DNA of 64,000 nt, taken from NCBI GenBank assembly GCA_022711755.1, contig JAKLEA010000002.1, positions 62,001 to 126,000 of the forward strand, given 5' to 3'. The DNA comes from Planctomycetota bacterium (GTDB lineage: Bacteria > Planctomycetota > Brocadiia > SM23-32 > JAKLEA01). The notes under the pieces were generated by a model. The model searched no databases. It was given only the letters and a program-made list of their open reading frames with translations, and was not told the origin of the DNA. Numbering within the stretch: the stretch's first letter is position 1; each line of letters begins with the position of its first letter. The position numbers and the translations under genes were made by a program. Of the stretch, positions 39,448-42,054 are shown in pieces.

Positions 39448-42054
39448 ATGAAGCCATCCATCGAAATCGAACTTTTCGGTCTGCGGCTGCGCTCGCCCCT
39501 GATTGTCGCCAGCAGCGGGCTGACAGCCAACCTCGACCGCATGCGCCGCGCAGAGGACAACGGCGCCGGGGCCGTCGTTATGAAGGGGATAAGCGACATC
39601 GCCGTCATGCGCCGCTCGCCGTCCCCGCGATTCCGCCTTATTGACAGGTCGGCATCGGGGCATGACGCCGGAACAGGAAAGGGCGCGCGCACCTTCTATT
39701 CATACGAGCAAGGCTCCGAATGGGGGCCGGAGGAATACGCCGCCGAGGTCGCGAGGGCCAAACGCTCGCTCGGCATCCCGGTGTTCGTCAACATTGACTG
39801 TAACAGCCCCGAGACATGGGAAAGCTACACGAAGACCATCGCCGCCGCCGGGCCGGACGGCATCGAGGCGAACATCTCCTGCCCGCACGGCTCCGTGACC
39901 TTCTTCGGGGGGGAGGTGGAGAAGACCGTCTGCGAAGTCGCGCGTCAACTGGTCTCGCTCACGAAAATCCCGATCGTTGTGAAACTCAGTCCTCAGCTGA
40001 CCTCCCCGCCCACGCTGGCGTCCGCGTTTGAAAAAACCGGCGTCGCTGGATTGACAGTCTTCAACCGTCTGACCGGTCTTGACGTGGATATCGAGACCGG
40101 CGAACCAGTAATGCACGGAAGCTACGCCGGACACGGCGGGGCGTGGGCGTTGAACAACACGTTGCGCTGGGTGGCCGGGTTGAGTCCGGGGCTTAAGATT
40201 CCCATCCTGGCAAGCGGCGGGGTTGTCTGCGCCGAAGACGCCGTGAAATGCCTGATGTGCGGCGCGGCGGCCGTCGAAATCTGCACGATCATCTACACGG
40301 ACGGCTTCGAGACTATCCAGCTTATCAATAGCGGGATCGAACAATACCTCGAAAGGACCGGAAGGGCCGGGATCGGCGATATTCGCGGAATCACATGTTC
40401 GCGGATCAAGACAATCGCTCAGGTGGAGCGCCGGAGCAAGTTGCGCGCGAAGATCGAATGCGCAGGCGCGCCCCCATGCCGCGCCGCCTGTCCCATCGAG
40501 CAGGAGGCGATGGGTTATATCATGCTCATCAGGCAGCGAAAGTACTGGCAGGCGCTGAGACTCATAAAGCGCGATAACCCCTTCCCGTCCGTCTGCGGAC
40601 GCGTCTGCCACCACCCCTGCGAAAAGGAATGCGCGGCCGGGGAGATCGGCGAGCCGCTGGCCATCGCGGCGCTGAAGCGATTCGTGGCCGATATGGAACC
40701 AGACATCCCGCGATTCCCTGAAGACCGCCCGGAAAGGCGCTTCCCGGAGAGCGTGGCCGTCATCGGCGCCGGCCCGGCGGGACTTACCGCCGCCCGCGAC
40801 CTGGCGCGTCTGGGTTACGGGGTCGAAGTTTTCGAGTCCGCGCCGAAACCCGGCGGCATGCTTAATACTATCGCGCCCTTCAGGCTCCCGCGCAACGTCG
40901 TCGAACGCGAGATTCAATCCATCCTGGACATTGGGGTGAAAGTCAGGACCGGATTCCGTATCGGCCGTGATGCGACATTTGAAGAGATCAGAGCGGGACA
41001 CGACGCTGTTCTGGTCGCCATCGGCGCGCAGGAGAGTCGGCAACTTGGCATACCGGGCGAAGGCGCTGAGGGCGTGATTCCCGGGCTGAGTCTGCTGCGT
41101 CGAATCGGCCAGGGGGAAAGGCCGGCGCTTGCGGGTCGGGCGATTGTTCTGGGGGGGGGAGACGTCGCGATGGACTGCGCCCGGAGCGCGATCAGGCTCG
41201 GCGCCGACGTTACGATCTTCTACCGCCGCGACAGGGATGCCATGCCTGCGCACGGGGAACAGGTCGCTGACGCCGAAGCCGAGGGTGTTAAACTGGAGTT
41301 TCTGGCCTCCCCGGTTGAAATAGTGGCGACGGGGGGGAGGGTGAGCGGCGTCCGCTTCATCCGCAACAGGCTTGAAATCTCCGGAGACGGTTCGCGACCG
41401 AGGCCGGTCCCGGTTGAGGGAAGCGAGTTTGTCGCGCCGTGCGAGGCAGTGATTGTGGCGATCGGACAGGACATTGACGCCGATTTCGCAGGGTCAGCAT
41501 CAAGTGACAACGATACGGAAGCGCAACAATCTGCAATGGTTCAGAGCGTAGGGGCGGGTCTAAAACCTTCCCCTGCTGATACGCCGGGAGTTTTCATCTG
41601 CGGCGACGCGGAGACCGGGCCGGCCAGCCTCGTCGAGGCTATTGCGGGCGGACGCCGAAGCGCACAGGCGATCCATCGCTGGCTGCGCAACCTGCCGATT
41701 CCTCAAACCGATATCTTGCCGGTTGCGGACAAGACCGCCATTCTCAAGAACGCTTCAAAACCCGCCCCGTGCCGTCATGCGGAGGAGGTCCCCGTCGCGG
41801 AACGTATCAAGGATTTCCGGGAAATCACGAAAACGCTGAGCGAGGAAGATGCGATCAGGGAAGCGGAAAGATGTCTCGGTTGCTCCGTTTGCGCCTTCTG
41901 CGGCGAGTGCGCCAGGATATGCATCTATGACGGGATAGAACGCGGCGGGGGGCTCATGATCGTGAACGAGCGTTGCGACGGATGCGGATTATGCGCGGAA
42001 CTCTGCCCCAATCGCGCCATCAGTATGGAACCATCCCCCGGATCAGATAAATAA
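39448..42054 (+). CDS. Single-chain fusion: DHOD-like barrel, GltD-like flavoprotein and 2x[4Fe-4S] ferredoxin
   Basis: This protein of 868 residues combines three parts. Residues 1-325 form a dihydroorotate/dihydropyrimidine dehydrogenase FMN barrel (VVMKGISDIAVMRRSP, FVNIDCNSPETW, IEANISCPHG, ILASGGVVCAEDAVKCLMCG). Residues about 335-425 are the GltD-type helical iron-sulfur domain (CAGAPPCRAACP, CGRVCHHPCEKEC). Residues about 428-760 bind FAD (VAVIGAGPAGLTAARDLARL) and NAD(P)H (IVLGGGDVAMDCARSAIRLG). Residues about 805-855 form a two-cluster ferredoxin (CLGCSVCAFCGECARIC, CDGCGLCAELCP). Mammalian DPYD has the order GltD-DHOD-ferredoxin; here DHOD comes first. The active-site loop after SCPHG differs from DPYD/PreA and lacks its catalytic Cys segment, so the substrate may not be a pyrimidine. 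Confidence 0.88.
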   Translation: MKPSIEIELFGLRLRSPLIVASSGLTANLDRMRRAEDNGAGAVVMKGISDIAVMRRSPSPRFRLIDRSASGHDAGTGKGARTFYSYEQGSEWGPEEYAAEVARAKRSLGIPVFVNIDCNSPETWESYTKTIAAAGPDGIEANISCPHGSVTFFGGEVEKTVCEVARQLVSLTKIPIVVKLSPQLTSPPTLASAFEKTGVAGLTVFNRLTGLDVDIETGEPVMHGSYAGHGGAWALNNTLRWVAGLSPGLKIPILASGGVVCAEDAVKCLMCGAAAVEICTIIYTDGFETIQLINSGIEQYLERTGRAGIGDIRGITCSRIKTIAQVERRSKLRAKIECAGAPPCRAACPIEQEAMGYIMLIRQRKYWQALRLIKRDNPFPSVCGRVCHHPCEKECAAGEIGEPLAIAALKRFVADMEPDIPRFPEDRPERRFPESVAVIGAGPAGLTAARDLARLGYGVEVFESAPKPGGMLNTIAPFRLPRNVVEREIQSILDIGVKVRTGFRIGRDATFEEIRAGHDAVLVAIGAQESRQLGIPGEGAEGVIPGLSLLRRIGQGERPALAGRAIVLGGGDVAMDCARSAIRLGADVTIFYRRDRDAMPAHGEQVADAEAEGVKLEFLASPVEIVATGGRVSGVRFIRNRLEISGDGSRPRPVPVEGSEFVAPCEAVIVAIGQDIDADFAGSASSDNDTEAQQSAMVQSVGAGLKPSPADTPGVFICGDAETGPASLVEAIAGGRRSAQAIHRWLRNLPIPQTDILPVADKTAILKNASKPAPCRHAEEVPVAERIKDFREITKTLSEEDAIREAERCLGCSVCAFCGECARICIYDGIERGGGLMIVNERCDGCGLCAELCPNRAISMEPSPGSDK

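Follow-up and report, generated by a model that had tools for sequence, protein, structure and literature searches.

Two questions are raised by the gene at positions 39448-42054 of the window, the 64,000-nucleotide stretch of planctomycetotal DNA analysed here: whether a protein that combines the domains of dihydropyrimidine dehydrogenase (DPYD) in another order is a rearranged DPYD, and what it reduces. The reading we favour, with moderate confidence, is that of a self-contained NAD(P)H-dependent flavo-iron-sulphur C=C reductase whose substrate is probably neither uracil/thymine nor orotate.

The gene is a single uninterrupted open reading frame on the + strand (as are all features below), which extends from an ATG at 39448 to a stop codon ending at 42054, has a GGAG sequence about 12 nt 5' of the ATG and encodes 868 aa. 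Four Pfam domains scored above their cut-offs: DHO_dh, the FMN barrel of the dihydroorotate dehydrogenase (DHOD) family (residues 6-301, 39463..40350, E 6.9e-23); Fer4_20, a helical iron-sulphur domain also marked by cysteine conservation (residues 337-417, 40456..40698); Pyr_redox_2, the FAD/NAD(P)H module (residues 435-735, 40750..41652); and Fer4 (residues 838-859). At the C-terminus, domain and structure-profile matches together with conservation delineate a REAERCLGC motif followed by a two-cluster ferredoxin (41851..42024; C809, C812, C818, C821, C825, C843, C846, C849 and C853). As these Pfam positions show, the order DHOD, GltD-like module, ferredoxin given in the preliminary description is real and differs from that of pig DPYD, in which the GltD-like part (79-420) precedes the DHOD part (533-837). 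The neighbours of the gene are uninformative, with a GT2 gene upstream and a convergent P-type ATPase gene.

A search for the same domain order elsewhere found it, again as uninterrupted genes, in a paralogue from the window's own genome and in eight other genomes, three of the same class (G011, G009, G003), two of the same phylum (G213, G271) and three others (the Clostridia DTU084 locus L008, G430, G442), all full-length. An assembly or sequencing artefact merging two genes, for which no supporting point was found, therefore has a vanishingly small probability and was rejected. The paralogue, on contig C57 (L005:6657-9254, - strand), has 865 aa and 42% identity to the window protein, and lies near a KDPG aldolase gene and a UroD-type methyltransferase-like gene (the latter assigned by reading). 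No conserved set of neighbours accompanies the fused form from genome to genome; by reading, an ispF-like gene ends 7 bp before the start of the fusion gene in G009 (L028:6015-9131), and in G271 (L067:6863-10762) an hslU-like gene ends 37 bp before it. The DHOD domains of these fusions belong to a clade for which we use our own name, FNR type, and whose signatures YEQ, SCPH, FNR and GHGG are all present in the window protein. This type is uncommon: matches were obtained in 5 of 392 sampled genomes of the same phylum (E <= 1e-80) and in 17 of 399 sampled genomes of the Clostridial genome's phylum (E <= 1e-75), the latter mostly as stand-alone proteins. A search of E. coli genomes at the nucleotide level returned zero matches. 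A second, clearly separate DHOD subtype carries CCPN in place of SCPH and precedes a GltD-ferredoxin module of the same kind, which gives the same domain order, at L030:1348-4002, L031:2048-4696 and L032:6930-9752.

The preliminary description had proposed a different substrate on the ground that the loop after SCPHG lacks the segment bearing the catalytic cysteine of DPYD. However, alignment and computed residue numbering place Cys671 of pig DPYD within SCPHG itself, and the window protein retains it as Cys145, in N142-I-S144-C145-P-H (N142-I143-S144-C145 at 39871..39882), invariant across the fusions in the alignment. The chain of PDB 1h7x, which we take to be the C671A mutant of pig DPYD, has SAPHG at this position. 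Loss of the catalytic cysteine was thus rejected; the residue that had been in mind is probably C684, another cysteine of the DPYD loop, which E. coli PreA lacks too. What does hold is that the loop is altered, being four residues shorter than in DPYD (39883..39921 in the alignment), and a substrate other than uracil or thymine is indeed the more likely reading, although for other reasons.

These reasons lie in the FMN site. Many DPYD residues are kept (K574 as K46, E611 as E87, N668 as N142, S670 as S144, K709 as K179 and N736 as N206), and K46, E87, N142, S144, C145, K179 and N206 are conserved in the FNR-type fusions, so that the enzyme would appear, by sequence, catalytically intact. Two aligned positions differ from DPYD and PreA: N609 is replaced by Ser85 (39700..39702) and T737 by Arg207, which follows Asn206 in the FNR signature (40063..40068). 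Both replacements occur in essentially all FNR-type members. In the DPYD structure, N609, N668, N736 and T737 are established pyrimidine-contact residues; since two of these positions are replaced, uracil/thymine or orotate is probably not the substrate. An AlphaFold model computed from three sequences reached a pLDDT of 43.8, too low to be of use.

The ancestry of the modules was examined with NCBIfam profiles and a tree. The DHOD domain best matched PRK07565 (213 bits, versus 153 bits for PreA), and residues 331-862 matched PRK12771 at 471 bits, versus 202 bits for the DPYD match of the GltD part; TIGR03315 (YgfK) gave 281 bits over the GltD/ferredoxin part only. The window protein is below each of the curated cut-offs (PRK07565, 303; PreA, 335; PRK12771, 516; TIGR03315, 835.3 bits). 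A tree was built from 32 DHOD domains, leaving out the L040 ORF, which is a GltD-like protein. In this tree FNR-type DHODs, fused and stand-alone, form one clade (support 100/99), with the window domain separate from the PyrDB clade. The sister group (97/90) consists of DHOD-ferredoxin proteins encoded beside xanthine-dehydrogenase-like genes (by reading), which also carry the Ser/Arg signature. Grouping of the fusions with PreA/DPYD was rejected by the AU test (p = 1.2e-5). The fusions fall into more than one group on the best tree, but a single origin could not be rejected (p = 0.16). Clostridial fusions, and not the own-genome paralogue, are the partners of the window protein (100/99); the paralogue sits in a different branch of the FNR clade. 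This placement suggests horizontal transfer.

The REAERCLGC motif is C-terminal in both the window protein and PRK12771, and N-terminal in NfnL-type proteins. Because the FMN domain falls in its own clade, the GltD module is PRK12771-like and this motif has the PRK12771 position, the protein seems to have arisen when a DHOD-like domain was fused independently to a PRK12771-like module, and not by rearrangement of DPYD. For the FMN domain, the AU test rejected descent from DPYD by permutation; the GltD module, for its part, is PRK12771-like. The label "permuted DPYD" is thus misleading, since DPYD/PreTA is the closest match of neither half, an affinity of the FMN domain to DPYD/PreA is rejected by the tree, and YgfK already has the same order. 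Within the dihydroorotate dehydrogenase family, the FMN domain belongs to a branch that is uncharacterised.

It could still be argued that the protein is a functional dihydropyrimidine dehydrogenase, equivalent to PreTA, on one chain with an altered domain order, as the catalytic cysteine, the counterparts of Asn668, Ser670 and Asn736, the FMN lysines and the PreTA cofactor set are all conserved. This we consider unlikely in view of the Asn609-to-Ser and Thr737-to-Arg replacements, the placement of the FMN domain and the genomic setting. Indeed, no dihydropyrimidinase match above the curated cut-off was obtained in ten fusion genomes, which argues against pyrimidine catabolism; with incomplete drafts among the assemblies, however, a missing gene counts as evidence and not as proof. 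Moreover, E. coli PreTA is reported to act on uracil in a genome without PydB (PMC7332683), and the absence of PydB is therefore not decisive; as E. coli has PreTA but no Pyd pathway, a dihydropyrimidinase partner does not strictly define these enzymes. Similarly, orotate is unlikely as a substrate because the same genome encodes PyrDB next to PyrK elsewhere; a role in orotate biosynthesis was rejected on account of this canonical pair.

If pyrimidines are improbable substrates, other heterocycles have to be weighed, since yanthine (2,8-dioxopurine) is converted when YgfK acts together with SsnA and NAD(P)H, and modelling has assigned it an FMN site and an FAD site resembling those of pig DPYD (PMC12507026). 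In E. coli YgfK, Fer4_20, Pyr_redox_2 and a C-terminal 4Fe-4S domain lie within residues 453-955, and the 430 or so residues that precede them have no Pfam match. With its FMN site placed by published modelling, YgfK already has the order FMN, Fer4_20, Pyr_redox_2, 4Fe-4S, which is thus not new. If the window protein reduced a different N-heterocycle, for instance an oxidised purine or a pyridine, this would be in keeping with this shared order, with the reduction of yanthine by YgfK (PMC12507026) and with a sister clade (97/90) that has the Ser/Arg signature and, by reading, adjoins xanthine-dehydrogenase-like subunits. It nevertheless seems improbable to us: 1) no SsnA match above the curated cut-off was found in the ten fusion genomes, which makes the urate pathway unlikely; 2) purine-ring catabolic genes were not seen beside the FNR-type fusions; and 3) residues 1-433 of YgfK showed no detectable similarity to the FNR family (hhalign) or to PDB chains. 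By reading, DHOD-ferredoxin genes at L098-L101 share their loci with genes for xanthine-dehydrogenase-like subunits, a nitrilase-like protein, a cupin and 2-oxoacid:ferredoxin oxidoreductase-like proteins, and these loci may represent an undescribed anaerobic heterocycle pathway.

The built-in electron chain proposed in the preliminary description is supported by the domains and by the conserved catalytic and cluster residues, which together provide the cofactor set from NAD(P)H to FMN. All 13 fusions retain cysteines C344, C348, C387, C391, C395, C809, C812, C818, C821, C825, C843, C846, C849 and C853, and 12 of the 13 retain C383. Within the FAD/NAD(P)H module, assigned to the PRK12771 type from Pfam, NCBIfam and conservation, the motif Y592-R593-R594...M599-P600 is invariant in ten FNR-type fusions; from what is known of GltD and NfnL, it favours NADPH. 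In the proposed mechanism, NAD(P)H, probably NADPH, would donate electrons at the FAD of this module, and the [4Fe-4S] clusters of the module, followed by the C-terminal ferredoxin, would relay them to the FMN of the N-terminal barrel, where an activated C=C bond would be reduced. Cys145 would serve as general acid, like Cys671 in DPYD, and Arg207 would suit a carboxylated, otherwise anionic or carbonyl-bearing substrate. We infer this path, the direction of the reaction and the substrate class from the cofactor and residue pattern.

The opposite direction, in which a substrate would be oxidised at FMN and electrons delivered to NAD(P)+ or to an external ferredoxin or flavoprotein, possibly with bifurcation or confurcation, draws on the best PDB matches of the NAD(P)H module, which include NfnA-type and related complexes, and on stand-alone relatives that have no such module and adjoin a second flavoprotein. 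However, DPYD, PydAc and YgfK, which have this cofactor logic in common, all reduce, and oxidation is confined to DHODs, which use other partners; an oxidising enzyme is accordingly very unlikely, and reduction remains the preferred reading.

A lead to the substrate comes from the genome context of the relatives, which points weakly to sugar-acid breakdown: the stand-alone ones lie in loci for polysaccharide and sugar-acid metabolism. The stand-alone FNR-type DHOD-ferredoxin gene adjoins a fumarate-reductase-like flavoprotein gene in 9 of 12 loci and has a zinc alcohol dehydrogenase gene in its locus in 9 of 12, five of each nine being from near relatives. KDPG aldolase and PfkB kinase genes occur in two stand-alone loci (L071, L090) and GH2 and PcRGLX genes in two (L092, L095). 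Among the fusions, a KDPG aldolase gene lies about 0.9 kb away in divergent orientation (L005), a DapA-family gene immediately downstream (L008, L072), and a PfkB-type kinase gene near two CCPN fusions (L030, L031). In the Clostridial sample of complete and draft genomes, L091, L092, L093, L094, L095 and L096 contain a conserved operon encoding the DHOD-ferredoxin protein, the fumarate-reductase-like flavoprotein, zinc alcohol dehydrogenase and a Gfo/Idh oxidoreductase, accompanied in these loci by GH2 and PcRGLX genes; no account of this four-gene operon was found. At L090:9774-11664 (G770), a frameshift or a sequencing error divides the flavoprotein gene, which adjoins the DHOD-ferredoxin gene, into two overlapping reading frames.

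None of the ten FNR-type fusions lies in a flavoprotein/alcohol dehydrogenase operon, and the best counterpart of the flavoprotein in the window's own genome is a 30%-identity match, so that the window fusion apparently stands outside the system of that operon. A tentative proposal, which we hold to be possible but rather doubtful, is that FNR-type DHODs, stand-alone and fused, are C=C reductases in an as yet undescribed pathway by which sugar acids or unsaturated/modified uronates are processed anaerobically, reducing a sugar-derived enoate or enone, the fusion being an NADPH-powered version that would dispense with an external electron partner. A sugar-acid role is a lead and not proof, as the counts are raw ones and no telling neighbour flanks the window gene; literature searches for DHOD-like enzymes connected with sugars, pectin or KDPG returned nothing relevant. 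If it is true, the DHOD family would gain a role in carbohydrate breakdown, and a conserved, apparently uncharacterised operon of anaerobic polysaccharide degraders would become accessible to genetic tests.

Independently of this lead, an annotation trap is corrected: these proteins resemble DPYD/PreTA yet belong to a different reductase clade, and forecasts of drug or pyrimidine reduction based on that resemblance are therefore unsafe. With DPYD, PreT-PreA and PydA, the window protein shares the cofactor logic, a DHOD-family FMN domain, the catalytic cysteine and two asparagines, while it differs in domain order, in N609S and T737R, in a loop four residues shorter, in its FMN clade and in a GltD module closer to PRK12771. 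Single-polypeptide PydA homologues with a Pyr_redox_2 domain are also known, 29 sequences being mentioned in PMC7332683. YgfK (TIGR03315) has the same domain order and 29% identity across the GltD/ferredoxin part, but its N-terminal 430 aa have no Pfam DHO_dh match, whereas the window protein has DHO_dh. For PRK07565 (NF005741), the dihydroorotate dehydrogenase-like family that best matches the DHOD domain, albeit under its cut-off, no functional study was found in the literature searched. The NAD(P)-binding GltD-like proteins of PRK12771 (NF009410) match the remainder of the chain, including the C-terminal REAxRCLxC motif and the ferredoxin, under the cut-off of 516 bits, but their profile (566 positions) has no DHOD domain. 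The stand-alone FNR-type DHOD-ferredoxin proteins (mostly from Bacillota, about 381-396 aa) share the FMN-domain clade and its signature but, unlike the window protein, have no NAD(P)H module and lie in flavoprotein/zinc alcohol dehydrogenase operons.
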